From the NCBI GenBank assembly GCA_023663225.1, contig JAMPHU010000034.1, forward strand, positions 1 through 32,670: 32,670 nt of DNA. Reading direction: 5' to 3'. The stretch comes from Candidatus Gastranaerophilales bacterium. GTDB lineage: Bacteria > Bacillota > Clostridia > Lachnospirales > Lachnospiraceae. Of this stretch, positions 814 through 26,245 are shown piece after piece. A model generated the notes under the pieces. That model made no database searches and was not told the DNA's origin. It worked only from the letters and a program-made list of their open reading frames with translations. How positions within the stretch are numbered: position 1 is the stretch's first letter; each line of letters begins with the position of its first letter. The position numbers and the translations under genes were made by a program.

Positions 814-1989
814 ATGATTGACTTTTGCGAATTAAAAGATTTATGTATAGATATTATTGATTGTCCTCATTCCACCCCGAAATGGTTAAATGAAGGAATT
901 CCTGTGATAAGGAACTATAATATATCAGGAGGACAGTTAGATTTATCAAAATTATCTTATGTTGATGAAGAAACTTATAAAAACAGAATTAAAAGAGCTG
1001 AACCTCATGAAAATGACATTATTATATCAAGAGAAGCTCCAATGGGTGAAGTATGCTTAGTGCCTAAAAATTTTAAGTGTTGTCTTGGTCAAAGGCTTGT
1101 TTTGTTAAAAGTTGATAAAGAAAAATGTAATCCACACTATTTATTATATGCCCTGTTATCACCATACGTGCAAGCTCAAATAAAAAAGATAGACCAAACG
1201 GGTTCCATTGTTAGTAATTTGAATATACCTGATTTGAAGAAATTGAATATTCCTATTATAAAGAAAAATCAAGATGATATCGCAGAATGTTTAAGAGTAT
1301 TAAATGAAAAGATAAATATAAATTATAGAATCAATGCAGAATTGGAATCAATGGCAAAAACAATTTATGACTATTGGTTTTTACAGTTTGAATTTCCGAA
1401 TGAAGAAGGAGAACCATATAAATCTTCTGGTGGGAAAATGGTTTGGAATGAGGAATTAAATAAAAAGATTCCGGAGGGATGGGAAGTTAAAACGATAAAA
1501 CAGCTTTTAAACGTTGTAACCGGTAAAGAAGATGCAAACTTTTCATCTTTAGAGGGACAATATAAATTTTTTACTTGTTCACATGAAATTTTACAGTGTT
1601 CAGAATATGCTTTTGAGGGCAGTGCGGTATTGGTTGCTGGTAATGGTGATTTTAATGTAAAGCATTATTCGGGAAAGTTTAATGCATATCAAAGAACTTA
1701 TGTACTTATTCCAGACGAAAAAAAGTATTTTGCTGTTATTTATATGGCAGTAAGTCAAAGAATCATACAATTAAAAAATAATGCTAATGGTTCAATTATT
1801 AAATTCATTACAAAAGGCGATATTGAAGAAATTCCAATTTTGATTCCTATTAAGAATGCTTTGCTGGAAACATTAAATAAATTACTTACAGCAATAGAGT
1901 TAAGGTGGAAGGAAAATGAAGAACTTATATTATTACAGAAGTTCTTGTTACCACTGTTAATGAATGGGCAAGTGGGCTTTAAGAAGTAA
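814..1989 (+). CDS. hsdS: Type I restriction-modification specificity subunit HsdS
   Basis: This is the DNA-sequence-recognition subunit of the type I system, 391 aa, a normal length. Two target recognition domains can be seen. The first is residues 1 to about 150, ending in SNLNIPDLKKLNIPI; the second starts near IPEGWEVKTIKQLLNVVTG and ends near FITKGDIEEIPILIPI. Each is followed by a helical spacer: RVLNEKININYRINAELE after the first, and TAIELRWKENEELILLQKFL at the C-terminus. The motif MAKTIYDYWFLQFEFP between the halves is typical of this family. The start ATG has a GGGAG ribosome site 6 to 10 bases upstream. The gene is AT-rich compared with hsdM, as expected for fast-evolving specificity genes. 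Target sequence cannot be predicted from the sequence alone. Confidence 0.93.
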   Translation: MIDFCELKDLCIDIIDCPHSTPKWLNEGIPVIRNYNISGGQLDLSKLSYVDEETYKNRIKRAEPHENDIIISREAPMGEVCLVPKNFKCCLGQRLVLLKVDKEKCNPHYLLYALLSPYVQAQIKKIDQTGSIVSNLNIPDLKKLNIPIIKKNQDDIAECLRVLNEKININYRINAELESMAKTIYDYWFLQFEFPNEEGEPYKSSGGKMVWNEELNKKIPEGWEVKTIKQLLNVVTGKEDANFSSLEGQYKFFTCSHEILQCSEYAFEGSAVLVAGNGDFNVKHYSGKFNAYQRTYVLIPDEKKYFAVIYMAVSQRIIQLKNNANGSIIKFITKGDIEEIPILIPIKNALLETLNKLLTAIELRWKENEELILLQKFLLPLLMNGQVGFKK

Positions 1990-2031: not shown

Positions 2032-5000
2032 ATGTTAATGCTTGAATTGTTAAAAGGCATATCTAATTTGGGCACCGCAGAGGCAGAAAATCTGTTAGTA
2101 TCTGCTGGGGAAAGTATTTTAAAAAATCTCAAAAGTGCCCACGACTGGAAGAAAATATTAGTAGATACCGGCGAGTTCTTCATCGAGAATGAAAAAACGG
2201 CGGCACAGTTTTTTGACGACTTATCCCTTGTCCTTGCAAAGGACAATATGGTGGTGATTGCTAAGAATTTGAAAGATACAGACGGATATGAATTGAAAAA
2301 CCGTTTATATAAAATGCTGATGCAGCTTATGGCGAAATATGAAATTCACCATGAATTGGCGGAATCCTATTGTTTAAGGATAATGTATGTAATACTGGAA
2401 CAAATAAAGGTTATTGCCCCAGATAAATATGAACATTACTTTCTGCAGGAATGGAAGGATGAGCAACAAGCCAGTTTAGAAGAATTGCATATAAAGATAG
2501 ATAAAATGTCAAAAGACAATGCCTTATATCAAAGGCAGCACCTACTAATTGAATCATCCGGACAAATGGACATTGAGCTTAGACGGAGTACGGATAAGCC
2601 GTCCATAGGAATTGAGTTTTTCAAAATTGATGATGAACATTTTCAGGAAGAATTTGAGGAACATATATATGATGAGTTGGTCTATGTAAGAGGACGGTGC
2701 CAAGAGGAAACCATTTACTGTATCCTCAACGAGCTTTGGAGGTTAAATGAAAAAAGACCTATTTATGTAGTGAAAAGTTTGGAATCTTGGCAGAAGCTGC
2801 AGAATGTTGCCAGTGAAAACAATATATACATTCCATGGTTTTTCGCAGATGAAATTGTGGCAATTGAAAACAATACGAATATTTTTGTGTTAAATGAAAA
2901 TATGCCGGCGTACACCAGGAATGTCATTGAGTTAAGACCAAGGACTTTGAATACCATATCACACTGCCTTCAGGAAGCGGGAATGGAATCGGATGAAGCG
3001 TATGCGCTGATTGCAGATACTCATGGACTTTATATTCCTATGAAGAAGCGTTTGTTTCGGGGAGAGTATCAGAAGCGACCTCAGTGGATGGATGGAATCA
3101 GCGATAAGGTGAAGAAGATATGTTTGCTTTTAGGGAAATGGGAGGAGACGGAAGGAGATAAACTGATTATAGAAACTCTTTACGGAGGTGATTATGAGAA
3201 CTTTCTTGAAGAAATTCTGTCCTATACAAAAGGAGAGGATCCTTTTGTTTATGTGATCAAAGGTAGCCGAAGAAATCATGCACCGTTTTACTGTTTGGCA
3301 AGTACAGAGAACACATGGGAGTGGTTGGATGTTTCTTTGGATGATTCATTATGGAAAAGATTTATTGATATTTTTATAGAAGTCCTAAACGAATCGGAAA
3401 ATTTGTTTACCTATTCTGCACAGGAGAAGTTACTGGCTCAGATAAAGGGAGAAAAATTGTTTTGGTCTGAAACAATCAGAAAAGGCATGGTCAGAACTCT
3501 GATTATGAAGGGATGTTACAGGAAAACAAAAGACTGTCAGCCTGCTATGGATGAGGTAATAGATAGAATATTGAACTATATAACTACGGAAAAGCAGTGG
3601 TCTTATATTTCCACATTTTGGACAGATTTATGTGAGATATCTCCTAAAGCGGTTTTGGCACGATTAGAGAGGGAATTTGTGGAACCAACGGGGCTTCTGG
3701 GGTTATTTGAGCATCAAAGCGATGATTTTTTGTTTGGAAGAAATGCATATATTAACATTTTGTGGGGCGTGGAGCAGTTTCTCGTTCAAGACACATTTGC
3801 ATGGGATGCTTTTCACTGGTTGCTAAAACTGGATAGCCTTGATCATGAATATAAATCTAATGCGCCAAGGGATATTTTTGATAAGATTTTCTGTACTTGG
3901 TATAATTTTTCCGCGATTACAACCCCAGAGAAGAAAATTGAAGCCGCAAAATTAGCAATTCAATCAAGCGGGCACATTTGGACATATCTATATGAAGCGG
4001 TGTCTCATCGGGGCAGAAGTATATTGGGAGAATTATCAGCACCGAAATACAGAGAGCATAGGACGATGGAACCTGTAACCATCGGAGATGTGCAGACAGT
4101 ATCTATAGGTTATATTAATGTTCTTTTAAATAATATGGATTTTTCTGCTGAACGATGGAACAGAATATTGAAAGTAATCGAAGAGTTTGATTCAGAGATA
4201 AGAAAAGATGTATTCAATAGGCTTATGTATGAAGTGACTCAAATGACCGATTATGAGATTATAGATATCAAAAATAATATCAGAGAGATAATATATCGGC
4301 ATAGATATTTTGCTTCTTCCTCTTGGGCAATGTCAGAGAATAGGCTGCAGGAGTATGAAGAATTGTTGGATGAAATTTATACAAGTCAAGTCGAATATGA
4401 GTATGGATACTTGTTCTATGGGAATAGAGAATATCCGTTGCTTCATCCGGTGCCATATGAAACTGAAGGGGAAAAGAAAGGAAATGAATGTGCAACGGAA
4501 AAACTGGTTCGGGAAAAGTTGCTTGAATTTCAAAATAAAAACTATCGATTAGAGGTACTGGCGGAACTTTCCGGCAAAGAGCCGTATAACTCTCTTGGAA
4601 GCTATTTGGCGAAGTACTGGAAAGATGGTAAATGGGATTTTGAAACCTTTGAGATTTTATTGAAAGCCCAGCCATCTGGTAGTATGGCTGTTGATTATAT
4701 GACAATTGCCATTGGAGAAAATGTGGGATTATATCCCGATATCATTTTAAAGGTAAGAGAACAGGGTTATTCGGATGAAGTTTTGGCAAAAATTTATCGT
4801 TCGGAAGCATTTTCAACTGAAAATGTTCCTTTGATTTCAAACGCGCCTAATGAGATGAAAACTATTTTTTGGAAGGGACCTGTTTCTTATAGAAAAAGCA
4901 ATGTCCTTTGGGCTGTGAGTGAGAGTAAAAATCATTCGAGTTTGGACATTTTTTTGCAGCATATGTACCGTCTGCATCATGAAAATCCGTTGAGCGCATG

Positions 5001-5766
5001 GGAAATTTATTCCTATATGGAGGGTATTGAAGGAATGCAACATACTCAAAATAGTCAAATGACGGATTATTATATGAAACAGTTTCTTGAAATCATGCAA
5101 AAAGAATTCCTGCATGATGAAGAAAAATGTTTGAGAATTTCCCAAATAGAAATCTATTTCATGAATCTTTTAGAATGGGATAACATGAAATGCTTTCATC
5201 ATATAATCAAGAAATCGCCGGAATTGTTTGCTATGTTGGTTGCAGGGATTTATAAAAGGGATCATGAACCGAGAGAAAAGCTTGAACCGAACGAGCAATA
5301 TATACACAATATGTATACCGTGTATGATAAGGCACATTTTTGTCCAGCAGAAGAAGATGGCAAGGTAAAGGAGGAAAAACTTCGGCAATGGGTTGAGACA
5401 TTCAGTAGTTTATTGGAGCAAAATGACCAGAGTAGTTTATTTGGCTCTATGATAGGCAGATTGTTTGCGTTTTCACCGTGTGGGGAAGATGGACATGAGC
5501 CTTGCGAGGCAGTGAGGGCTCTCATAGAAGATTATTGTGATGATAGACTTTGTAGCAGCTATGAATCTGGTATTTTTAATCGTCGTGGAATATACAGTCC
5601 GTCTGCTGGGAAAGAAGAAATGCGAATGGCAGAAGATTTTAAGGCTAACGCAGAGTATTTGAATCACAAATATCCAAAGACGGCAAAAATTTTTTATAGC
5701 CTATATGATAGATATAAAAGAGAATCTGAACGGGCAAGGACGGAGGCAGAAAATGAGTGGTATTGA
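2032..5766 (+). CDS. Giant uncharacterised protein, possible inactivated STAND-like conflict protein
   Basis: A 1244-residue protein with no signal peptide or membrane segment. I cannot assign it to a named family with certainty. Residues 1 to about 165 are helical and charged. Near residue 215 a strand-loop-helix reads VYVRGRCQEETIYCILNEL. It sits where a STAND/NACHT P-loop would be but lacks the GKT/S signature. It is followed by IYVVKSLESWQKL, then FFADEIVAI and an IFVLNEN strand ending in VIELRPRTL, the order of strands in a P-loop ATPase that has lost nucleotide-binding residues. The remaining roughly 900 residues look alpha-helical, with many Trp and Glu, like a repeat scaffold. The gene lies 42 bases after hsdS with a GGGG ribosome site, and its end overlaps the start of the kinase gene. 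This suggests a sensor or scaffold of a defence module. The fold call is inference. Confidence 0.75.
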   Translation: MLMLELLKGISNLGTAEAENLLVSAGESILKNLKSAHDWKKILVDTGEFFIENEKTAAQFFDDLSLVLAKDNMVVIAKNLKDTDGYELKNRLYKMLMQLMAKYEIHHELAESYCLRIMYVILEQIKVIAPDKYEHYFLQEWKDEQQASLEELHIKIDKMSKDNALYQRQHLLIESSGQMDIELRRSTDKPSIGIEFFKIDDEHFQEEFEEHIYDELVYVRGRCQEETIYCILNELWRLNEKRPIYVVKSLESWQKLQNVASENNIYIPWFFADEIVAIENNTNIFVLNENMPAYTRNVIELRPRTLNTISHCLQEAGMESDEAYALIADTHGLYIPMKKRLFRGEYQKRPQWMDGISDKVKKICLLLGKWEETEGDKLIIETLYGGDYENFLEEILSYTKGEDPFVYVIKGSRRNHAPFYCLASTENTWEWLDVSLDDSLWKRFIDIFIEVLNESENLFTYSAQEKLLAQIKGEKLFWSETIRKGMVRTLIMKGCYRKTKDCQPAMDEVIDRILNYITTEKQWSYISTFWTDLCEISPKAVLARLEREFVEPTGLLGLFEHQSDDFLFGRNAYINILWGVEQFLVQDTFAWDAFHWLLKLDSLDHEYKSNAPRDIFDKIFCTWYNFSAITTPEKKIEAAKLAIQSSGHIWTYLYEAVSHRGRSILGELSAPKYREHRTMEPVTIGDVQTVSIGYINVLLNNMDFSAERWNRILKVIEEFDSEIRKDVFNRLMYEVTQMTDYEIIDIKNNIREIIYRHRYFASSSWAMSENRLQEYEELLDEIYTSQVEYEYGYLFYGNREYPLLHPVPYETEGEKKGNECATEKLVREKLLEFQNKNYRLEVLAELSGKEPYNSLGSYLAKYWKDGKWDFETFEILLKAQPSGSMAVDYMTIAIGENVGLYPDIILKVREQGYSDEVLAKIYRSEAFSTENVPLISNAPNEMKTIFWKGPVSYRKSNVLWAVSESKNHSSLDIFLQHMYRLHHENPLSAWEIYSYMEGIEGMQHTQNSQMTDYYMKQFLEIMQKEFLHDEEKCLRISQIEIYFMNLLEWDNMKCFHHIIKKSPELFAMLVAGIYKRDHEPREKLEPNEQYIHNMYTVYDKAHFCPAEEDGKVKEEKLRQWVETFSSLLEQNDQSSLFGSMIGRLFAFSPCGEDGHEPCEAVRALIEDYCDDRLCSSYESGIFNRRGIYSPSAGKEEMRMAEDFKANAEYLNHKYPKTAKIFYSLYDRYKRESERARTEAENEWY

Positions 5767-7090
5767 TGCAAATGATCCTAAACCCGGAATGAGAATTAAT
5801 GGCAAGTTTGGAACATATAAACTTGTGGAAAAATTAGGAGATGGGGGAAACGGCGTAGTATATTCCGTAGAAGTGATATCTGCTGAGAATGAGTTGCTAA
5901 GGAAAGAAAAACTCGCAATAAAAATATTGACAGTCAGGTCTTATAAGTATAGGGAACGAAAGAAAAGAGAGGAAAGGTTTCAAAAAGAAATTCAATATAT
6001 ATGTCAAATTCAAGATGAGGTAGAGGGAATTATTCCAATTTACGATGCTTCTTCTTTTTTGGAAGAGTGTGGGTACCTTGACTGGTATATAATGCCGAAG
6101 GCATCGAAATATTATTTTTGGAAATCTTATACTACAGAAGAAAAATTGAAAGACATGAGAAGCCTTGGAGAATGCATTGCACAGTTGCATGCAAAAGGGC
6201 TTGCACACAGAGATATCAAGCCTCGAAATTTATTGGTTTACAAAAATAGAGTATGCTTGTCAGATTTTGGCTTGGTCTGGAATATGGATGAAAAGAAGTA
6301 TCATATTACGGATATACAAGATAGCATGGGGCCTATAGCAACCCGACCACCGGAAATGCGAAGTGTGGAGGATTTGGCTGGTATTGATTACAGAAAATCT
6401 GATGTGTATTTGTTTGTAAAAACAGTATGGATTATATTGACAGGAGTAAAAGAGGGATTTTCTGGGGAATATAATCGCTCTAAAAAAAGTATCTATCTGG
6501 ATAGAGAAAAATTACGGTTAGAAACCGCAGAACCGCTCCATTTGATGCTAAAATCAGCGACCGAATATTATTGGCGAGATCGGATTGATATTGGTAAATG
6601 TATACAATATATTGATGAACAATTGGACATTATTGCAAGAAGAGCAAGTGATGTTGATATTAGTAGATGGAAATATGAGGAGACGGCAAAAGAAATAAGT
6701 GAAACGATTTCAGCAGATGCTCAAATTTATCAGGATACATATTCTATTCAGGAAATTTTGGAGAAGATGGCAGGAATGGTAAATCTTATTTTTGAAGAAA
6801 CAGGCAAAACATATGATCCGATGCTTCTAAAGGGTGCAAAGATTTTATCGGACAATCTGTTTGAATTGGAGATTAAAAACGCCTATTACAACAATAGAAG
6901 AAAAATAGTTGTTGACATTGAAAAGATATTTATGAAGAAAGATTTATCCTGCGTAATGTATATAAGGGGAGTAACCGGTCAATTTGATAATATACCGATA
7001 TTTACAAATTTGAAAGAGGCTCTTCAATCCATGGATAAACAAATTTGTATAAGCGGAACGTATAGCGTTCAACTTGCACAGTTCAAATGA
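5753..7090 (+). CDS. Ser/Thr protein kinase with C-terminal extension
   Basis: A Hanks-type serine/threonine kinase of 445 aa. All catalytic elements are visible: Gly-rich loop GDGGNG (29-34), the ATP-binding Lys in LAIKIL (57), HRDIKPRN with catalytic Asp 154, DFG at 171-173, a PPE motif closing the activation segment, and SDVYLF in helix F. It should therefore be active. About 180 further residues follow the kinase domain and are unrecognised; no transmembrane helix, PASTA or FHA domain is seen, so it is cytoplasmic. I chose the ATG at 5753 because GGAGG lies just upstream. It overlaps the end of the giant gene by 14 bases, implying translational coupling. An in-frame ATG at 5705 lies deeper in the upstream gene. 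Its position in the hsd operon suggests a signalling step in defence rather than cell-wall control; that is inference. Confidence 0.9.
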   Translation: MSGIDANDPKPGMRINGKFGTYKLVEKLGDGGNGVVYSVEVISAENELLRKEKLAIKILTVRSYKYRERKKREERFQKEIQYICQIQDEVEGIIPIYDASSFLEECGYLDWYIMPKASKYYFWKSYTTEEKLKDMRSLGECIAQLHAKGLAHRDIKPRNLLVYKNRVCLSDFGLVWNMDEKKYHITDIQDSMGPIATRPPEMRSVEDLAGIDYRKSDVYLFVKTVWIILTGVKEGFSGEYNRSKKSIYLDREKLRLETAEPLHLMLKSATEYYWRDRIDIGKCIQYIDEQLDIIARRASDVDISRWKYEETAKEISETISADAQIYQDTYSIQEILEKMAGMVNLIFEETGKTYDPMLLKGAKILSDNLFELEIKNAYYNNRRKIVVDIEKIFMKKDLSCVMYIRGVTGQFDNIPIFTNLKEALQSMDKQICISGTYSVQLAQFK

Positions 7091-7109
7091 CATAGCGGAG
7101 GTTATAGAA

Positions 7110-8477
7110 ATGTCAGAAAGTCAAAATATAGAATATAAAGAATCATGGCGCACAGAATACCTGAAGTGGGTGTGCGGTTTTGCTAACGCTCAGGGTGGGA
7201 CAATTTATATCGGGATAGATGATGCCGGAAAGGTCGTAGGTTTGAAGGATGTCAAGAAGCTGATGGATGATATTCCCAATCAAATCCAATCAGGACTTGG
7301 CATTATTGTCGATGTCAATAAACGGACAAAAGAAGGTCTGGATTATATTGAAATCAAAGTAAACCCCAGCACTTATCCGGTCAATTACCACGGTGAATAC
7401 CACTACCGAAGCGGTAGTACAAAACAGCAGCTTCAAGGAGCAGCTTTGACAGAGTTTATCAGAGAAAAAACAGGTTATCTGTGGGATGCGATTCCTGTTG
7501 ATAACATAGGTGTGGATGACCTTGACAGGAACAGCATTGATATCTTTCGTAGGGAGGCTGTGCGAAAGAAAAGGATGGAAAAAGAAGATTTGGATGTCCC
7601 GAATACAGAGCTTCTTGATCATCTTGATCTTTTAGTAGATGGACGCTTGAAACGTGCGGCGGTTATGCTTTTTTACCGAAAGCCGGGGCGGATCATAACA
7701 GGGTGCTATGTGAAAATCGGAAAGTTTGGCGTGGGTTCAGATCTGCAATACCAGGACACGGTAGAAGGGTCGTTGTTTAGCATTGCTGACAGGGTGATTG
7801 ATTTGATTTATACGAAATATCTGAAGGCGGCGATTACTTATGAACATGATGTGCGGATAGAAACATATCCGTTTCCACGTGAGGGTGTAAGGGAAGCAAT
7901 TTACAACGCCTTGGGACATAATAACTACGCTGCCAGTATCCCAATCCAGATTCGCATTGAAGAGGACGCAATGTATATCAGCAATAGCTGCATCCTGCCG
8001 AAAAACTGGACGGTGGAGACGTTGATGAAGCCTCACAAGTCAGAGCCGTTCAATCCGTCTATTGCCAATGCGTTTTATCGTGCCGGGTACATTGAGGCAT
8101 GGGGACGCGGCATCCAAAAGATTTGTGAAGCTTGTAGAGAACTTGGAACAGCGGCCCCTGAGTATACAGTGTTGGGCAATGATCTTACTGTGAAGTTTAC
8201 TGCCCTTGAAAGCGCTAAAGTACCAGTTCCTAAAGCTCCAAAACGTCAAGATGAAGTTTTGGATGAAGTTTTGGATGAAGTTTTGGATGAAGTTTTGGAA
8301 AACAGAATTGTAAAAGAATTAGAAAAAGATGCAAAGCTAAGCCAGAAAGAATTGGCAGAGAGAACCCAGGCATCTCTTTCATCTATTCAAAGGGCAATAA
8401 AAAACCTGAAAGAAAGCGGTCGCATTGTTCGAAAGGGTGGTAAAAGATTCGGATATTGGGAGCTCAATGAGATATAA
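7110..8477 (+). CDS. AlbA_2 (Schlafen-like) domain regulator with HATPase_c_4-type region and C-terminal winged helix
   Basis: A 455-aa protein of the family often annotated as putative transcriptional regulator or RecG-like. The N-terminal AlbA_2 domain shows NIEYKESW, then FANAQGGTIYIGIDD, the nucleic-acid-binding fold shared with Schlafens. The middle has PFPREGVREAIYNALGHNNY and YRAGYIEAWGRGIQKI, the HATPase_c_4 hallmarks. A charged linker contains four copies of DEVL, then a winged helix (LSQKELAERTQASLSSIQRAIKNL) for DNA binding. I chose the ATG at 7110, which has GGAGG about 9 bases upstream and lies 19 bases after the kinase stop; the in-frame ATG at 7074 lies inside the kinase gene. 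It is the last gene of the operon-like hsd run. Two further AlbA_2 fragments lie downstream of the insertion sequence. Its role here may be autoregulation of the module. Confidence 0.88.
   Translation: MSESQNIEYKESWRTEYLKWVCGFANAQGGTIYIGIDDAGKVVGLKDVKKLMDDIPNQIQSGLGIIVDVNKRTKEGLDYIEIKVNPSTYPVNYHGEYHYRSGSTKQQLQGAALTEFIREKTGYLWDAIPVDNIGVDDLDRNSIDIFRREAVRKKRMEKEDLDVPNTELLDHLDLLVDGRLKRAAVMLFYRKPGRIITGCYVKIGKFGVGSDLQYQDTVEGSLFSIADRVIDLIYTKYLKAAITYEHDVRIETYPFPREGVREAIYNALGHNNYAASIPIQIRIEEDAMYISNSCILPKNWTVETLMKPHKSEPFNPSIANAFYRAGYIEAWGRGIQKICEACRELGTAAPEYTVLGNDLTVKFTALESAKVPVPKAPKRQDEVLDEVLDEVLDEVLENRIVKELEKDAKLSQKELAERTQASLSSIQRAIKNLKESGRIVRKGGKRFGYWELNEI
8250..8297 (+). repeat. Four tandem 12-bp repeats inside the AlbA_2 gene
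   Basis: The unit GATGAAGTTTTG occurs four times in perfect tandem and encodes (DEVL)4 in the linker before the winged-helix domain. Because the unit is a multiple of three, slippage would change linker length without breaking the frame. Confidence 0.95.
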
Positions 8478-10561: not shown

Positions 10562-10744
10562 TTGCTATACTATGGTTATTTTGGATCCGGTAACAACGTA
10601 AATATGGATTGGCTTGATAGAAACGGTTACTGGGCATCGCAGGGGCAATATCCGACACAAGTCCGATTAAGTAAAACACAGTTTAAAGAGATATTAGCGG
10701 AGGGAAATGTCAATGTGTCAAATGTTATTATCGATCAACCCTGA
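10562..10744 (+). pseudogene. ORF fragment of unknown function, overlapping the ASCH gene
   Basis: Sixty codons beginning at an ATG with no clear ribosome site; the frame is open a little further upstream (LFDGYSTVAELLYYGYF). The protein is rich in Gly, Asn and Tyr, with WLDRNGYWASQGQYP, and ends in NVSNVIIDQP, overlapping the start of the ASCH gene by 32 bases. It may be the tail of a lost gene whose 3' end contains the downstream ribosome site. No family is recognised. It could be a genuine small protein, but the missing ribosome site argues against this. Confidence 0.35.
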
Positions 10745-11111
10745 ATATGTGGAAAGTATTTTGCAAGGAACCAAACGTTATGAATATCGCAAATTCCGCT
10801 GCCGGGAAGATGTGGATAAGATTATTATTTATGCTACCGCACCGCAAAAAAAGGTTGTTGCAGAAGCAGAGATAGAAAGTATAGTCGAAGATGAAGTATT
10901 AAATGTGTGGCGCAAAACAAAGCAGTATTCCGGAATCACATATTCCTTTTTTAGGAAGTATTACAAGGGAAAGAAAAAAGCGGTTGCATACCAGTTAAAA
11001 AATGTTGTGATATATGAGGAACCGCGTACATTAAAAAGTATTGGCGTGAAGTGTGCGCCGCAGTCTTATTGCTATATTACTACATTAAAAGAAGAGGAAT
11101 TGGTGGTGTAG
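10713..11111 (+). CDS. ASCH/PUA-like domain protein
   Basis: A 132-aa protein resembling the ASCH/PUA-like superfamily, small beta-barrel domains that bind RNA or modified nucleotides. The opening MLLSINPEYVESILQGTKRYEYRKFRC matches the typical pattern of one beta strand, a short helix and the GTKxxEYRK motif that lines the binding cleft. YATAPQKKVVAEAEI is the next strand pair, and a helix-rich insert (VWRKTKQYSGITYSFFRKYY) follows. I chose ATG 10713 because GGAGGG lies 8 bases upstream; ATG 10707 would be too close to it. It appears intact although it lies among pseudogenes, so it may be under selection or recently acquired. A small acidic ORF follows 5 bases later. The precise ligand is unknown. 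Confidence 0.75.
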   Translation: MCQMLLSINPEYVESILQGTKRYEYRKFRCREDVDKIIIYATAPQKKVVAEAEIESIVEDEVLNVWRKTKQYSGITYSFFRKYYKGKKKAVAYQLKNVVIYEEPRTLKSIGVKCAPQSYCYITTLKEEELVV

Positions 11112-12190: not shown

Positions 12191-12636
12191 ATGCCTATGA
12201 ACATAGAAGCATATAATCTCGATTCTCTCCGGCAGTTGGTGCGGGATTTGCAGAAAGAGAATCGAAAGCTGAAACAACAGCTCGATAAAGCCAATATAGC
12301 CTACGATTCTGAAAGCATATTTGACGGGAGGATAGAAAGTGCAGTCGAATATGACCCGGATCAGGGAGAGCGGATTATCGGCAAATATATTACGGAAGGA
12401 CTGGCAAAAAAATTCTTTGCAATGTTTTGGGGCAGGATAGATGTATATGCGAAGCGGGGAAAAACGGCGGATATTTCCCACAGTGTAATCACCGCTGGAA
12501 TGACAGGATCTGTCCGAAGCAGCGTGGGGAGAAGACAGCCTGCGAAAACTGTGGGCATACAGAGTGGACAGCTTTGACACCCAAGAAGATAATGGAGCAT
12601 CTTCTCGGCTGTAAAGAGGACGGCTCAGATGTGTGG
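12191..12636 (+). pseudogene. Frameshifted N-terminal remnant of a TOTE-type primase-helicase
   Basis: The first part reads LRQLVRDLQKENRKLKQQL (coiled coil), then YDPDQGERIIGKYITEGLA and FFAMFWGRIDVYAKRG. Around 12455-12462 the frame shifts by a missing base and continues in another frame as KNGGYFPQCNHRW, then CPKQRGEKTACENCGH and KKIMEHLLGCKEDGSDV. Together these make the N-terminal region, including the Cys-rich zinc segment, of the large primase-helicase proteins of TOTE conflict systems and conjugative elements. The sequence breaks off at about 12636, where the relatives continue into the primase domain. The upstream UvrA-like gene boundary follows 30 bases later. The family call is from remembered motifs; relatives normally exceed 800 residues. 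Confidence 0.65.
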
Positions 12637-12666
12637 TATAGATTGAGAAGGATAAGAGAGGGAAAG

Positions 12667-15204
12667 ATGGAACGATTTGAGAATTACAGGGAGGTTCCCA
12701 GCGCAATCAAAATACGTGGCGCTCGTGTTCATAATCTTAAAAACATTAATCTGGATATTCCGTTGGGAAAGCTGGTAGGGATTGCAGGTGTCTCTGGTTC
12801 CGGAAAATCATCCCTGTCAATGGGTGTTCTGTATGCCGAAGGCTCCAGACGTTATCTGGAGGCATTGTCCGCTTATACAAGAAGGCGCATGACGCAGGCT
12901 GCGGAGGCGAAACTGGACAGTATAGAAAATGTTCCGGCGGCTCTGGCTCTCCATCAGCGGCCCGCTGTGCCGGGTGTTCGGAGTACCTTCGGTACATCTA
13001 CCGAGTTATTGAACCCGTTACGGCTGATGTTTTCCAGATTGGGAAGCCATTGCTGTTCCAATGGACACTATCTGCCTCCGACTACAAATGTGGCTGCAGA
13101 CAAACCATTGGTTTGTCCGGTTTGCGGGGAAACCTTCAGCGGCCCCAGCGCTGAAAGCTTTTCTTTCAACAGTCAGGGAGCCTGTAGAACATGTGGCGGT
13201 ACGGGAATTGTGCGGACAGTGGACGAGGCCTCGCTTGTTCCGGACGAGAGCCTGTCCATAGACGATGGGGCGGTGGCTCCCTGGAATTCTCTGATGTGGT
13301 CGCTGATGACGGATGTCTGCAGAGCCATGGGTGTTCGCACGGACATTCCCTTTTCGGAACTGACGGAAAAGGAACGGGATATTGTTTTTCACGGTCCGGC
13401 AGAGAAAAAGCATATTTTTTACAAATCGAAAAACGGCAGTGAGGCGGGAGAGTTGGATTTTACTTATTTTAACGCTGTTTATACTGTGGAAAATGCCCTG
13501 TCAAAAGTAAAGGATGACAAGGGCATGAAGCGCGTGGAGAAATTTTTGCGGCAGGATGTATGCCCGGATTGCGGCGGCACGCGGTTGAATGAGCAGGCTC
13601 GTTCAACCCTTCTTCTGGGACAAAATCTTGCGGAAGTGACGGCCATGACACTGGAAGCCCTGCTCTTCTGGGTATCTTCCGTTCCGGCAAAGATGCCGGA
13701 AGAGCTGCGGGATCTGGCGGAAAGTATCTGCAGTCAGTTCCGCCATACGGCAAAACGGCTGATGGAACTTGGCTTGGGTTATCTGACATTGGACCGCGCA
13801 GGGGCTACGCTTTCTACAGGGGAAAGACAGCGGGTACAGCTTGCAAGGGCAGTAAGAAATCGAACCACGGGTGTGCTGTATGTCCTTGATGAGCCGTCTA
13901 TCGGGCTGCATCCGGCGAATGTGGAAGGATTATTGGGTGTGGTAAATGATCTGGTAGATCGTGGTAATTCTGTTGTGTTGGTAGATCATGATGTGCGGGT
14001 GTTGAAGGCAGCCGACTGGCTGGTGGAAATGGGGCCTGGAGCCGGAATATATGGCGGTCAGGTCTTGTCTGCCGGGACGGTGAATGAGGTGGCGCAGAAA
14101 CAAGACTCCTTAATTGCCGGATTTCTGGCGGACCGGGAACAGACCGTGGTCAGGGACAGGATAAGCCCTGAAACCATGTTTATGCATGGACACATCCGGC
14201 TTTCCACGGAACCGCTGCATACGGTTCACGCTCTGGAACTTGATATTCCCAAGGGGCGGCTGGTTGCCGTCACCGGCGTTTCCGGTTCGGGCAAAACAAC
14301 GCTTATCTTGGAGAGTTTGCTCCCTGCTTTAAAAGCGAAGGCAGCGGAGGAAAAGATGCCTGTCCATATCAAAACGCTGGATGCGCAGGGCATTGAGAGA
14401 GCCAGCTTGATTGACGCGTCTCCCATTGGGATTAACGTCCGTTCCACAGTAGCCACATACAGCGGTGTTCTGGATGAACTGCGGCGGCTTTACGCAGCTA
14501 CGCCGTCGGCAAGGGAGCTTGGCTGCAAAATGGGGGATTTTTCTTACAATACCGGTTCTCTGCGTTGTCCCGGATGCGATGGTACGGGGCAGATTACGAT
14601 GGACGTGCAGTTCCTTCCTGACGTGGAGATTGAATGTCCGGAATGTGGCGGCTCCCGTTACCGAAAGGAGGCAGAGAAGATACGGTATTACTCCCGTAAG
14701 GCGGCACAGGACAGTCAGGGAATTTCATTGCCGGATTTGATGAGGCTGACGATAGATCAGGCTTTGGAGCAGCTTGCGGATGTGAAGAAAGTAAAGGGAA
14801 TGCTGCAGATTTTGGCAGACTTGGGGCTGGGGTATCTGACGCTTGGGGAGGCAACACCGGCGCTCTCCGGCGGCGAAGCTCAGAGGCTTAAGCTGGCGGC
14901 TGAAATGGGGAAAGCACAGGATGATGCTGTGTTTATTTTTGATGAACCTACGATTGGACTGCATCCGCTGGATGTACGGCGGCTGATTCAGGTATTCCAG
15001 CGGCTGATTGATAAGGGCGCTACCGTAATCGTGATTGAGCATGATCTGGACATGATTGCGAATGCGGATTATGTGGTTGATATGGGACCGGGCGGTGGAG
15101 AAGCGGGAGGGCAGATTATTGCCGTTGGCACTCCGGAGGAGATAGCGGGAAATGAAATGAGCATTACAGGAAAATATTTAAAACCAAATACAGAAAAATC
15201 GTAA
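12667..15204 (+). CDS. UvrA-like ATP-binding cassette protein (UvrA paralogue)
   Basis: An 845-aa tandem ABC ATPase of the excinuclease UvrA family. Walker A motifs are GVSGSGKSS (residue 41) and GVSGSGKTT (537); signatures are LSTGERQRVQLARA and LSGGEAQRLKLAAE; Walker B regions are YVLDEPSIGLHP and FIFDEPTIGLHP. Zinc modules CPVCG/CRTCGG, CPDCGG and CPGCDG/CPECGG are present. It is about 100 residues shorter than canonical UvrA (about 940), consistent with paralogues that lack the UvrB-binding domain and are linked to DNA-lesion or antibiotic tolerance; that is inference. I chose ATG 12667 (MERFENYREV, with AGAGAGGG upstream), since the longer frame to 12427 translates the dead helicase remnant. 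The first signature has LSTGE in place of LSGGE. No uvrB or uvrC is adjacent. GC content rises clearly here, marking the edge of the AT-rich island. Confidence 0.85.
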   Translation: MERFENYREVPSAIKIRGARVHNLKNINLDIPLGKLVGIAGVSGSGKSSLSMGVLYAEGSRRYLEALSAYTRRRMTQAAEAKLDSIENVPAALALHQRPAVPGVRSTFGTSTELLNPLRLMFSRLGSHCCSNGHYLPPTTNVAADKPLVCPVCGETFSGPSAESFSFNSQGACRTCGGTGIVRTVDEASLVPDESLSIDDGAVAPWNSLMWSLMTDVCRAMGVRTDIPFSELTEKERDIVFHGPAEKKHIFYKSKNGSEAGELDFTYFNAVYTVENALSKVKDDKGMKRVEKFLRQDVCPDCGGTRLNEQARSTLLLGQNLAEVTAMTLEALLFWVSSVPAKMPEELRDLAESICSQFRHTAKRLMELGLGYLTLDRAGATLSTGERQRVQLARAVRNRTTGVLYVLDEPSIGLHPANVEGLLGVVNDLVDRGNSVVLVDHDVRVLKAADWLVEMGPGAGIYGGQVLSAGTVNEVAQKQDSLIAGFLADREQTVVRDRISPETMFMHGHIRLSTEPLHTVHALELDIPKGRLVAVTGVSGSGKTTLILESLLPALKAKAAEEKMPVHIKTLDAQGIERASLIDASPIGINVRSTVATYSGVLDELRRLYAATPSARELGCKMGDFSYNTGSLRCPGCDGTGQITMDVQFLPDVEIECPECGGSRYRKEAEKIRYYSRKAAQDSQGISLPDLMRLTIDQALEQLADVKKVKGMLQILADLGLGYLTLGEATPALSGGEAQRLKLAAEMGKAQDDAVFIFDEPTIGLHPLDVRRLIQVFQRLIDKGATVIVIEHDLDMIANADYVVDMGPGGGEAGGQIIAVGTPEEIAGNEMSITGKYLKPNTEKS

Positions 15205-22876: not shown

Positions 22877-25800
22877 ATGCGAAACAAGTTTACAAAGCGG
22901 ATGCTGGCACTGGTTTTGCCCTTTTTGATGATCTTCTCCATGACCTTTGTCAGTTCTGCAGAAAATGATGCAATCATGATAGCGATAGATGGAAACGACG
23001 CCGGTTCGGAGGAAATCTTCCCGGACGGCGTTTGGGATACGGGGGATGTCTTAGACGCGCAGACGCAGGAGACAGGAGCGAATGAGAGCGTGTCTGCGGA
23101 CGGTTCCGATATGGGTCTGGAATTGCTGGATGCGGAGGTGAGCGGATCCGGAGAAGATGTGGGACAGGCTTTGTTCGTGGTGACGGACGGCGATGGGACG
23201 GAATTTGGAAAATACGGCAGCTGGGCGGATCTGCTGGCTGCTTTTAAACAAACGGGCAATCCGGCGGAGGAGTATCTGATTACGGTTTCGGAAGAGGGAA
23301 TCATAGGCGCTTCCATGCCCGGCAAAGCAGGACGGATCACCCTGCGGCCCGCACAGGAGGGCGGCACGTTGAAATTTGCTTCCGCCACGGTGAATCTGGC
23401 CACGGCGACGGCGATCGAGGCTGCGGTTCTGGAGACGGCCAAGGACGGGAAGCCCGTGAACATCAACACCAAGGGAAAATCTTTGACTTTGCGGCAGACG
23501 AAACATCTCGGCGCGGTGAAGGGGAGTTCCTCGGGCAGCCTGACGCTGGAGGGCGACATCCGGACGGAGGGAGCGCTGCAGACCTTCAAGACCGTGACCG
23601 TGCAGGGCAGCCTGTATCTTGGGCATAACATGACGGGGGTTGCCAATCTGAATCTGGAAAACGGCACGGTTTATCCGGCTTCGGGCAGAACCCTTACGGT
23701 GGCGAACGTGACCGCCGGAGAGAGCGGAACGCTGGTCTATCCCGGCACGGGGGCTTTGCCCACGGTCAAAATAACCGGTGCGGTGAGCGGCGTACTGAGC
23801 ATCCGGCAGTATGCGGAAGATACGGAGGAGGCGGAGGAACTGTACTTTGCGGCGGGAACCAAGCTGTTGACCGCCTCCAAGGCGAAGGCGGAACAGTTTG
23901 CCGTCTTCGGGGATAAAAGAATCTGCTATAAAAAGGGCAGCGCCGTCTATGTGGGGGCGGAGGTGCTGCAGCTCTATGCGCAGGAGGAGTATCTGGGAAC
24001 CTACGCACAGTGGAGCGACGTGGTGTCGCAGATCAACGGAAGACGGCAGAAAGGGACGGCTTACCGAGTGGTGCTTCTGGACGATTTCACGGTAAACGGG
24101 ACGCTCTCTATGCCCGGCAAGGGAAAATACGCGGGAATCGCTATCGAGAATGGCGCGTCGGGACGAAAACTTGCTCTGCGGGTCACGGGGAATGTCACGC
24201 TGACGGCAGACCTGAATTTAGGCACGGGGCTGGATTGGTATGTGAAGGGCTTATCCGGCGCAAGCTGGAAGTTTACAATGGAAAATGGTTCCGGGCTGAC
24301 GGCGGGCGGCGCGGTGACAGTGGGTACGCTGTCGCTGGGGGAGGACACGTTCCTACAGGCGGACGGAAATTTTACCGTCAAGAAACTGCTGGAGGCGGAG
24401 GAGGGCGCACATCTTGTCCTGACGCAGAAAAAGAAGGCGGCTCTTAAAGACAGCATGATAGAGGGCGGCGCGAGGGTCACGGTGAGCATACGGGACAAAA
24501 ATGACAATCGTGTCACACTTTCGCAGGGAACGACTTTGTTTACCTTGTCCGGCAGCAGTTACGCCACGCAGTACCGCCTTCTGGACGGGGAAGGGAAGGA
24601 GTTGGCTTTGTACCGGAAGGGCAATGCGCTGAAGGTGCAGGGATCGGCGGCCACGCCCGTGACGCTGTATGACGTGGCGGAGGACGGCGAGGTGAGTCTG
24701 GGCGAATATGCCTCTCTGGCGGACGTCAAAACGGAGATTGCAAGGCGCAAGAATGCCAAAGGGTCGTACCGGCTGGAGGTGGCGGAGGATCTTTTCGTCA
24801 AAGGAGCCATTCCCTTTCCTAAGGCGGGAACCTACAAAGAAATTACTTTTACGGGAGCGCGCATCCGCACCACGGGAAATCTTACCCTGACGGGCGGCGT
24901 GACGTTTGCAAATGAAGTCCGCAAGGTGAAAAACGAGAAGGACGACAAGGCGCTCTTGTGGACCGTGAATCTCTCGAAATATACTTTGACCATACCGGCG
25001 GGATCTTCCGTGGACAGTCTGGGAAGCGTGAAAGGCAGCACGGGTTCCTGCCTGCGGGTGGAAGCGGGTGCAGAGCAGACGATCAACGGCGATCTGAAAG
25101 CGGCGGCGCTGACGCTGGGCGGCAGGTTACAGGTCACGGGAAACGTAACGGTCACGGAGATCTGCCCTGAGGCGGGCAACCGGTTTGTCTATGATCTGGC
25201 CAAGAACGTCACCGTGAAGGGCGATATCACAGGGGACGGCACGAAACTGCTTTTGGATCCGCTGAAAAACGGACAAGCGCTGAGCGTCTATACGGAAGGG
25301 CAGAAAATTCTGAGCAGTATGCCCAAAGCCAATATCAACCGGCTGAAGCTGGCGCAGGAGACGGAATATACGCTTTACCGGGAAAACGGAGCGGTCAAGC
25401 TGGGAACGCCGATCATCACGGTGTTTGCGGATACTTTGGATTATGAGTCCTGCATCCATGCGGCGTCTTCCGATCAGCCCCGTTTCGTGCGGGTCAACGA
25501 CGCCATGGATTATATCAACGATACGAAATTTACGGAGTATGTGATCCGGTTGGATCAGGATGTGCCTTCGGCAGGGAATTTTACCATGCCTTCGGGCGGG
25601 AAGCACATTGTCTTGTGCGGAATCGGCGGGGAACAAAAGACGCTTGCGCTCTCCGGCTCCCTCACGCTGGACGGCAGCAGCCTGACGGTGCGCAATGTGA
25701 AGCTGGACAATAAGACCGCAGCGGAGCCTGGCGTCACGCTGAAAAACAATGCGTCCCTGTATTTGTATGAGACCGGGATCAATACTTTAAATGCGGCCGC

Positions 25801-26245
25801 CGGGACGGCGGTGACGCTGGAGGGACAGGTGGAGCTAAAAGGAGCCGTGAGCGGAGCCTGTGATCTGACCGTAGCGGAGAATGCCGTGGTGCGCGTAAAC
25901 GGGAACCTGACGGCCGGGACGCTCACTCTGGCAGCTACGCCGGGGACGGAAGGCCGCGCGCAGTTTCGGATTTCAAGCGGCAAAAAGATCACGATAAACG
26001 GCAAGGTGGATACGGGCGGCACGGGACTCTTTCTCATGAATGTGACGGACAAAAACGATGCGCTGGCGGATTTGAAGGAAGGCACGGTGCTGGTCAATAC
26101 GCAGTACGGAGAGGCGGGACAGTTCAGCACGGAGAATATCATACCGGGTACGTTTGAGAAGTGGACGCTGACGAAGGAGGGAACCGCGGTAAAGACCAAG
26201 GCGGATGCGGCGGACGACGGACAGTGGTCGGGGGATTATCTGTAG
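22877..26245 (+). CDS. Large secreted repeat protein, probably surface or extracellular
   Basis: A 1122-aa protein with a clear signal peptide (MRNKFTKRMLALVLPFLMIF, cleavage near VSSAEN). After an acidic spacer, four diverged copies of about 230 to 265 residues begin near residues 98, 365, 595 and 847. Each copy opens with a short strand plus a GxYxSWxD-type helix (EFGKYGSWADLLAAF; YLGTYAQWSDVVSQI; SLGEYASLADVKTEI; RVNDAMDYIND). Next comes a strand and a SMPGK-like turn (ASMPGK, LSMPGK, IPFPKAGT, FTMPSGGK), then a long run of short T/V/L-rich strands such as LRVTGNVTLTADL, suggesting a beta-helix or beta-solenoid. No LPxTG, SLH or choline-binding repeat is visible, so anchoring is unclear. 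AGGAGG lies 9 bases before the ATG. It is probably an adhesin-like or scaffold protein; no enzyme motif was seen. Confidence 0.75.
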   Translation: MRNKFTKRMLALVLPFLMIFSMTFVSSAENDAIMIAIDGNDAGSEEIFPDGVWDTGDVLDAQTQETGANESVSADGSDMGLELLDAEVSGSGEDVGQALFVVTDGDGTEFGKYGSWADLLAAFKQTGNPAEEYLITVSEEGIIGASMPGKAGRITLRPAQEGGTLKFASATVNLATATAIEAAVLETAKDGKPVNINTKGKSLTLRQTKHLGAVKGSSSGSLTLEGDIRTEGALQTFKTVTVQGSLYLGHNMTGVANLNLENGTVYPASGRTLTVANVTAGESGTLVYPGTGALPTVKITGAVSGVLSIRQYAEDTEEAEELYFAAGTKLLTASKAKAEQFAVFGDKRICYKKGSAVYVGAEVLQLYAQEEYLGTYAQWSDVVSQINGRRQKGTAYRVVLLDDFTVNGTLSMPGKGKYAGIAIENGASGRKLALRVTGNVTLTADLNLGTGLDWYVKGLSGASWKFTMENGSGLTAGGAVTVGTLSLGEDTFLQADGNFTVKKLLEAEEGAHLVLTQKKKAALKDSMIEGGARVTVSIRDKNDNRVTLSQGTTLFTLSGSSYATQYRLLDGEGKELALYRKGNALKVQGSAATPVTLYDVAEDGEVSLGEYASLADVKTEIARRKNAKGSYRLEVAEDLFVKGAIPFPKAGTYKEITFTGARIRTTGNLTLTGGVTFANEVRKVKNEKDDKALLWTVNLSKYTLTIPAGSSVDSLGSVKGSTGSCLRVEAGAEQTINGDLKAAALTLGGRLQVTGNVTVTEICPEAGNRFVYDLAKNVTVKGDITGDGTKLLLDPLKNGQALSVYTEGQKILSSMPKANINRLKLAQETEYTLYRENGAVKLGTPIITVFADTLDYESCIHAASSDQPRFVRVNDAMDYINDTKFTEYVIRLDQDVPSAGNFTMPSGGKHIVLCGIGGEQKTLALSGSLTLDGSSLTVRNVKLDNKTAAEPGVTLKNNASLYLYETGINTLNAAAGTAVTLEGQVELKGAVSGACDLTVAENAVVRVNGNLTAGTLTLAATPGTEGRAQFRISSGKKITINGKVDTGGTGLFLMNVTDKNDALADLKEGTVLVNTQYGEAGQFSTENIIPGTFEKWTLTKEGTAVKTKADAADDGQWSGDYL

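Follow-up and report, generated by a model that had tools for sequence, protein, structure and literature searches.

We describe a gene for a giant protein of 1244 amino acids (aa) in a contig of Candidatus Gastranaerophilales bacterium (assembly GCA_023663225.1, contig JAMPHU010000034.1), where it lies behind hsdS, the gene for a type I specificity subunit, and overlaps a gene for a serine/threonine (Ser/Thr) kinase. The stretch analysed, hereinafter the window, has 32,670 nucleotides and is the entire contig C39 of a 111-contig draft genome. Judging from profile comparison, about aa 363-1232 of the giant belong to the protein family encoded beside gapS6a, the product of which NCBIfam names an anti-phage protein, and the recurrent unit at loci of this type is the giant together with the kinase, although it is not universal. 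These observations are best read as placing the giant in a family of GapS6b-type receptors, as a branch coupled to a kinase. We lean, with some reserve, towards a two-gene anti-phage module similar to nucleotide-binding leucine-rich repeat (NLR) receptors, in which the giant would be the receptor that senses infection and the kinase would be the output.

Relationship of the giant to the protein encoded beside gapS6a

In an Escherichia coli locus (L054), the gene at 6675-6995 scores 136 bits with the NCBIfam model antiphage_GapS6a, above its cut-off of 90, and 5 bases after it begins a gene for a 930-aa protein that RefSeq calls hypothetical and that we take to be GapS6b, a presumed name given from its position beside gapS6a. 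Positions 40-917 of this protein align with approximately aa 363-1232 of the profile of the window-type giants (hereinafter the window clade) at an hhalign E-value of 6.3e-21, compared with 0.43-0.56 for one reversed and three column-shuffled decoys, so that the giant does not stand alone but can be assigned to the gapS6a-neighbour family. Within a set of 21 sequences, blastp started from the window protein alone points to the same homology (E 4e-7 and 1.7e-5), and the E. coli EC96 protein matches the window giant directly (blastp E 1.9e-26).

GAPS6 is reportedly a two-gene anti-phage system that emerged from work on the Gamma-Mobile-Trio. Almost the entire 930-aa protein has its counterpart in the C-terminal 870 aa of the giant, but the giant adds a nucleoside triphosphatase (NTPase)-like region and a helical N-terminus, and its partner is a kinase. 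The GapS6a/HetE-N domain has no match among the six window proteins scanned; GapS6a itself matches HetE-N at 7e-39. The identification of aa 1-190 of the giant with GapS6a was tried and dropped (E 0.22). Among the papers listed in literature searches on GAPS6 and GapS6b, none describes the large subunit beside GapS6a.

The C-terminal region is shared by proteins with different N-termini, namely, a helix-turn-helix (HTH) followed by a second domain, a domain that by eye resembles Cap4, a Schlafen AlbA_2 domain, and the helical N-terminus of the window type. The profile of the window clade (12 sequences) aligns with that of the second-domain clade (six sequences, often HTH-led) over aa 190-1238 with E 2e-82, and with that of four AlbA_2-fused proteins over aa 364-1231 with E 1.5e-32; reversed and column-shuffled decoys gave E 0.32 or higher. 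The AlbA_2 fusion was recognised by Pfam in L022 and L024 and by alignment with these in L023 and L030. No library match was obtained for the second domain found in the clade with an HTH, and a nuclease in the EC96-type N-terminus finds no Pfam support in the two proteins searched, such that the Cap4 resemblance is one seen by eye only. In a tree of 29 C-terminal regions (omitting L032, L039, L042, L044, L045 and L079), the two presumed GapS6b proteins form a group with support of 100/100, as do the four AlbA_2-fused proteins, and the four Cap4-like proteins group at 94/95. The window clade (11 rows, 100/100) is separate and lies beside a long-branched sequence whose placement the program flags as unsure.

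Relatives of the giant in the scan that covered one genome per species mostly come from Lachnospiraceae. With tblastn, matches were found in 9 of 397 family genomes, five of these being of the window type, in 3 of 138 genus genomes, of which two are window type, and in 18 plasmid records, among which the better matches mostly carry an HTH annotation; a class-wide profile search found relatives in 4 of 331 genomes. The one-genome-per-species scan with a C-terminal alignment yielded 15 loci, among which L033, L040, L042 and L044 repeat genomes already found. Viral contigs yielded no relative when scanned with A5, A8 or the window protein itself and three when scanned with A7, and phage records gave one weak match. 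Altogether, 17 window-type loci were compared (the window, L031-L045 and L079; a remnant in genome G273 was excluded), and alignment A6 covers 12 of the 17 giants.

The gapS6a gene and its large partner (L054, 6675-9793) are on an E. coli chromosome with phage tail genes nearby. A pair very similar to them in sequence (L046, 6576-9670) is on a Buttiauxella plasmid. In E. coli HS, a 1365-aa relative fused to a HigA-type HTH (L053, 6596-10693) is annotated merely as HigA antitoxin, and a PIN-domain gene lies just upstream.

Domain architecture and the degraded P-loop

The giant has no match above cut-off in Pfam, PADLOC or NCBIfam, and sequence searches against solved structures found no credible relative. 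An alignment-based structure model (15 sequences, aa 1-1200; predicted local distance difference test score, pLDDT, 74.6; predicted template modelling score 0.51) represents aa 439-1200 as an alpha-solenoid, with pLDDT mostly between 80 and 93 with dips, whereas aa 190-341 are modelled at low confidence. Aa 1-189 fall outside the region that hhalign finds common to the other clades; a single-sequence fold of aa 1-480 reached a pLDDT of 35.8 and was not used.

Receptors of the STAND (signal transduction ATPases with numerous domains) and NLR type, such as Avs and bNACHT, consist of an N-terminal module, an NTPase domain, helical and winged-helix segments and a repeat solenoid. The giant appears to follow this order, with an NTPase-like region, helical and winged-helix-like segments and long superstructure-forming repeats behind an N-terminal module, but Walker A is absent from the P-loop place. 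That this place, VYVRGRCQEETIYC, lacks a GKT/S signature had been noted in the original prediction and holds at aa 217-230. Thirteen aligned sequences of the window and second-domain clades, the window protein among them, lack Walker A there, and none of the 22 sequences scanned, again including the window protein, has [GA]xxxxGK[ST] at that site; therefore, as far as these sequences indicate, the loss of the P-loop is family-wide. In L041 the P-loop place is occupied by a bare GKS that lacks the leading glycine, and L016, L053 and L019 match [GA]xxxxGK[ST] elsewhere in the chain. In the 13-sequence alignment, this region opens with a hydrophobic strand and a short loop, in many cases with EE as its last residues, followed by a helix, further strands and a helical end. 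Aa 190-341 resemble the switch region of a STAND protein in which the P-loop is dead, and may have an NTPase fold. The original notion of a STAND-like sensor turned into a scaffold survives in that a dead P-loop is followed by long repeats; it fails in that the loss is family-wide and not a local conversion.

Fold searches, mainly with aa 479-938, matched generic solenoids of the HEAT/ARM type, and no bacterial STAND receptor was noticed among the matches listed (50 per search). Of the STAND or repeat fold envisaged originally, the repeat part was found, and the STAND part may still be present. Human SAMD9, an AlbA_2-bearing STAND protein, came up at rank 12 in Foldseek (E 1.7e-3, TM 0.14) and is given no weight here.

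The giant, kinase and AlbA_2 genes all look to be kept by purifying selection, although the ratios of nonsynonymous to synonymous substitution rates (dN/dS) are approximate, with dS often above 1. For the giant, dN/dS is 0.08-0.10 against L031-L033, at dS values of 1.4-1.5 that are near saturation, and 0.10-0.18 for the pairs L031-L032, L034-L036 and L040-L043, the highest value belonging to the less saturated L031-L032; for the kinase, it is 0.20-0.23 (against L031 and L033), and for the AlbA_2 protein, 0.06-0.11 (two relatives). The least conserved stretches of the giant, around aa 641-720 and 881-1040, are within the solenoid and might form the sensor surface.

The kinase and the proposed mechanism

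A kinase gene adjoins the giant gene in 9 of the 17 loci and is intact in seven of these (the window, L031, L033, L034, L036, L043 and L045). The catalytic residues that were originally reported as kept in the window are conserved in all seven intact kinases (GGNG, the VAIK-type lysine, HRDIK..N, DFG and PPE). The giant and kinase genes overlap by 14 bases in seven loci (the window, L031, L033, L034, L036, L040 and L043) and by 11 in L045, and the 14-base overlap persists down to about 44% identity of the giants. The C-terminal domain of the kinase is nearly confined to loci with a giant: in the family it was found in genomes G000 and G318 and in the G273 remnant, which consists of a piece of a giant and a piece of the kinase C-terminal domain, in each case beside giant sequence, and in the genus it was found beside the giant in G000 and G422 and as a decayed piece without a giant in G451. 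Chance gathering of unrelated accessory genes in one island would suit the presence of a kinase gene in only about half of the loci, and defence islands do mix genes, but the conserved overlap and the near-exclusive C-terminal domain make this very unlikely.

In the family at large, the C-terminal region is constant and the N-terminal part or partner is variable; therefore, we read the former as sensor and the latter as output. Because the giant has no known output domain fused to it and a dedicated kinase gene overlaps its stop codon, the kinase is the likeliest output. The missing Walker A leads us to ATP-independent switching, and the link to GAPS6 together with the defence-like neighbours leads us to phage sensing; growth arrest as the outcome is likewise proposed. 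Under this scheme, the GapS6b-type solenoid of the giant would bind a phage product, upon which the receptor would change shape or oligomerise without ATP hydrolysis, and its N-terminal domain would recruit or release the co-encoded kinase, which in turn would phosphorylate host (or phage) proteins and halt growth. The kinase would act in trans, whereas cousins would employ a fused domain (Cap4-like, the uncharacterised second domain or AlbA_2) or GapS6a; the AlbA_2-HATPase-winged-HTH protein would be an accessory regulator or ribonuclease (RNase) that belongs equally to the hsd locus. A more general proposition, which we advance only tentatively, is that GapS6b-type proteins make up one immune-receptor family that spans several phyla, lost ATP binding early and exchanged its outputs, with fused nuclease-like or Schlafen domains in some clades, GapS6a in another and the dedicated kinase acting in trans in the present case. 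Such a family would provide bacteria with an immune pathway that leads from receptor to kinase through an NLR-like switch independent of ATP.

The case for the kinase as the output is weakened by its being intact beside the giant in just 7 of the 17 loci; the kinase gene is split over two frames in L040 and truncated in L042. It is absent beside the giant in another seven, and the flanks of six of these (L035, L037, L038, L039, L041 and L079) bear no trace of a remnant in a search that left out L042, L044 and L045. In L032, the kinase gene is internally deleted, with the start and a short later stretch remaining (10725-10821), while the giant is open and the AlbA_2 gene is open to the contig end. 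The giants of L039 and L044 are themselves decayed. Thus, of the role of effector or switch that had been suggested for the kinase, the recurrent link to the giant and the conserved catalytic residues are borne out, but adjacency is not universal.

The giants that lack a kinase, along with the pairing of GapS6b-type cousins with other partners, would suit a kinase that is a regulator or antitoxin-like brake, phosphorylating the giant or the AlbA_2 protein, with the giant itself or a host partner as the effector. We regard this as unlikely: no library searched recognises a fused effector domain in the window giant, and the near-exclusive C-terminal domain marks the kinase as a dedicated partner, a feature that fits a brake equally well.

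If the kinase is the output as we favour, the module would join receptor-like sensing to phosphorylation in bacterial immunity; the dead P-loop by itself raises the question of how a receptor can switch without ATP. Placing the large GapS6 subunit in a wide family with varied N-terminal parts gives it a testable role as sensor, with the prediction that the partner would set the output, and other giants beside hsd genes that are annotated as hypothetical may be immune receptors.

The AlbA_2 gene and the hsd neighbourhood

The third gene of the window encodes SLFN_AlbA_2 (E 4e-18), HATPase_c_4 (E 6e-18) and winged HTH domains, in that order. Genes of this type adjoin the giant in 5 of the 17 loci, downstream in the window, L031 and L032 and upstream in L043 and L079. 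The three genes had been put forward as one module; the exact order giant-kinase-AlbA_2 is found in 2 of the 17 loci and any order in 3, and what recurs is the giant-kinase pair. Co-occurrence in other genomes, the lack of which had been named as a refutation, largely fails for the full trio but holds for this pair. Homologues of the AlbA_2 protein (E at most 1e-60) are present in 33 of the 138 genomes of the genus, its own included, among which only G000 and G422 have a window-type giant, that of G422 being on another contig. The same genome has a second type I locus, hsdM-hsdS-AlbA_2-hsdR (L072, 3303-11410, on contig C30), with no giant; its AlbA_2-type protein, encoded between hsdS and hsdR, is 60% identical to that of the window. 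The AlbA_2 gene is thus a common free-standing accessory and not a core part of the module.

Within the AlbA_2 gene, just before the winged HTH, the window contains four perfect 12-base repeats (GATGAAGTTTTG) at 8250-8297, a possible length-variable linker.

These distributions bear on the rather unlikely alternative that the trio is a real unit in which the AlbA_2 protein is the effector, a Schlafen that cleaves tRNA or other RNA at the command of the giant, and the kinase is the switch. The fusion of AlbA_2 to the same C-terminal region in four relatives, two of them in full hsdRMS operons, and the adjacency of AlbA_2-HATPase-winged-HTH genes to the giant in two arrangements speak for it; the 12 giants without an adjacent AlbA_2 gene, the many genomes of the genus with a homologue and no window-type giant, and the giant-free second hsd operon speak against it.

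Direct adjacency to hsd genes, which had been named as a point to check, was found in only 2 of the 17 loci, the window and L040 (hsdS-hsdR-giant-kinase), by blastp with three queries (the window hsdM piece, the window hsdS and the L017 hsdR), several loci ending at contig edges. In L039, the neighbouring open reading frame bears a weak resemblance to hsdR (E 3e-5, 21% over 147 aa); L038 has a methyltransferase gene and hsdS 3-6 kb downstream of the giant. In the AlbA_2-fused clade, two of the four proteins close full hsdRMS operons, lying 20 bases after hsdS in L024 and 28 after hsdR in L023. A search of the incomplete genome of the window for an hsdR of the L017 kind gave nothing more than weak similarity to the hsdR that lies on contig C30. 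A role of the giant-kinase pair as an added control of hsd restriction, for example sensing hsd inhibition, with no independent defence, is quite unlikely: the placement behind hsdS in the window, the order in L040 and the positions in L023, L024 and L038 would suit such a role, but in 15 of the 17 loci the blastp search with the three queries showed no clear adjacent hsd gene. Ten neighbours in L024, L030, L034, L036, L038, L040 and L043 all match PADLOC models; these were picked by hand as defence-looking and so do not amount to an unbiased tally of defence islands.

The hsdS frame at the start of the L040 contig (2-80) opens with a run of QTDR repeats.

Comparison with other defence systems

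Inactive STANDs have been described in BREX (PMC12839542) as BrxB and the C-terminus of PglW, the latter coupling one with a Ser/Thr/Tyr kinase. The giant seems similar in having a dead P-loop STAND-like domain, accompanied by a kinase, in a defence locus, but none of the core genes of BREX was seen in the window. The same source describes accessory proteins composed of a Schlafen RNase, a minimal histidine kinase and a winged HTH; the product of 7110-8477 has this domain order, with the difference that in the window the gene stands behind the giant and kinase genes of an hsd locus.

Stk2, PD-T4-6 and MAD6 share with the window kinase a Ser/Thr kinase domain (best PADLOC E-values 1e-18 to 3e-22), but the match is mainly to the general kinase domain and the partner of the window kinase differs. 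Among the five window proteins compared with PADLOC models of MADS (methylation-associated defence), the kinase matches mad6 (1.5e-21), hsdS matches mad5 (2e-26) and hsdM, inside which the contig ends, matches mad2 (4e-10), and the giant matches none. Two relatives on Shewanella plasmids (L016, 152-4264, and L048, 6983-10801) show weak but collinear matches to PD-Lambda-4_A (E 9.5e-5 and 5.2e-4), a hint that it may belong to the same family; the window giant and eleven other relatives scanned do not match it. PD-Lambda-4 is listed in a domain table of PMC10952713 and is not named in the main text of PMC9519451. PDLC03991 was searched for in 99 relatives, with partial matches in one genome only.

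No comparable combination of giant, kinase and AlbA_2 genes was recognised among the papers listed in literature searches, judged from titles and the beginnings of abstracts. The original statement that no named system has this trio is sustained to that extent, except that the C-terminal region of the giant belongs to a GAPS6-linked family.

Organization of the locus

The three genes follow hsdS with spacings exactly as first reported, a gap of 42 bases before the giant, the 14-base overlap with the kinase and a gap of 19 bases before the AlbA_2 gene, the last two with conserved starts (Table 1). The kinase ATG is preceded, at a distance of 6 bases, by a GGAGG. The terminator scan found no terminator-like site on the + strand at the three junctions downstream of hsdS, in agreement with the original account, and its + strand matches at 4669, 4724 and 7323 are all intragenic; overall, the scan found 8 sites compared with 4.4 +/- 2.2 in shuffled sequences, mildly above expectation.

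Table 1. Coordinates of genes and protein regions in the window
Feature	Position	Strand	Evidence
hsdM 3' end (type I N6-adenine methyltransferase), truncated at the contig edge	2..604	+	N6_Mtase E 5e-35; MTase_I E 5e-92
hsdS (type I specificity subunit)	814..1989	+	Methylase_S E 1e-25; Specificity_I E 7e-84
Giant protein, 1244 aa, GapS6b-related, receptor-like	2032..5766	+	Open reading frame calls, blastp, hhalign
Clade-specific helical N-terminal domain, aa 1-189	2032..2598	+	Helices in model, block pLDDT 28-80
Putative degraded NTPase-like domain and helical segment, aa 190-341	2599..3054	+	hhalign to HTH/second-domain clade begins at aa 190
P-loop position VYVRGRCQEETIYC, aa 217-230, without GK[ST]	2680..2721	+	Alignment, pattern scan
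Winged-helix-like segment, aa 352-431, order H-H-E-H-H-E-E	3085..3324	+	Model secondary structure only
GapS6b-type region, about aa 363-1232, mostly alpha-solenoid	3118..5727	+	hhalign E 6e-21; model
Ser/Thr kinase, 445 aa, conserved start	5753..7090	+	Pkinase E 1.4e-16
Kinase C-terminal domain, seldom found away from loci with a giant	6602..7087	+	3/397 family genomes, 3/138 genus genomes
AlbA_2 gene, accessory: Schlafen AlbA_2, HATPase_c_4, winged HTH; conserved start	7110..8477	+	

The AlbA_2 gene is followed by a transposase gene of the IS5 family (NCBIfam E 4e-97). Elsewhere in the window, an open frame of 1122 aa at 22877-26245 has no Pfam match at 1e-5, and a UvrA-like protein is encoded at 12427-15204, the N-terminus of which matches the TOTE primase model (E 9e-8).

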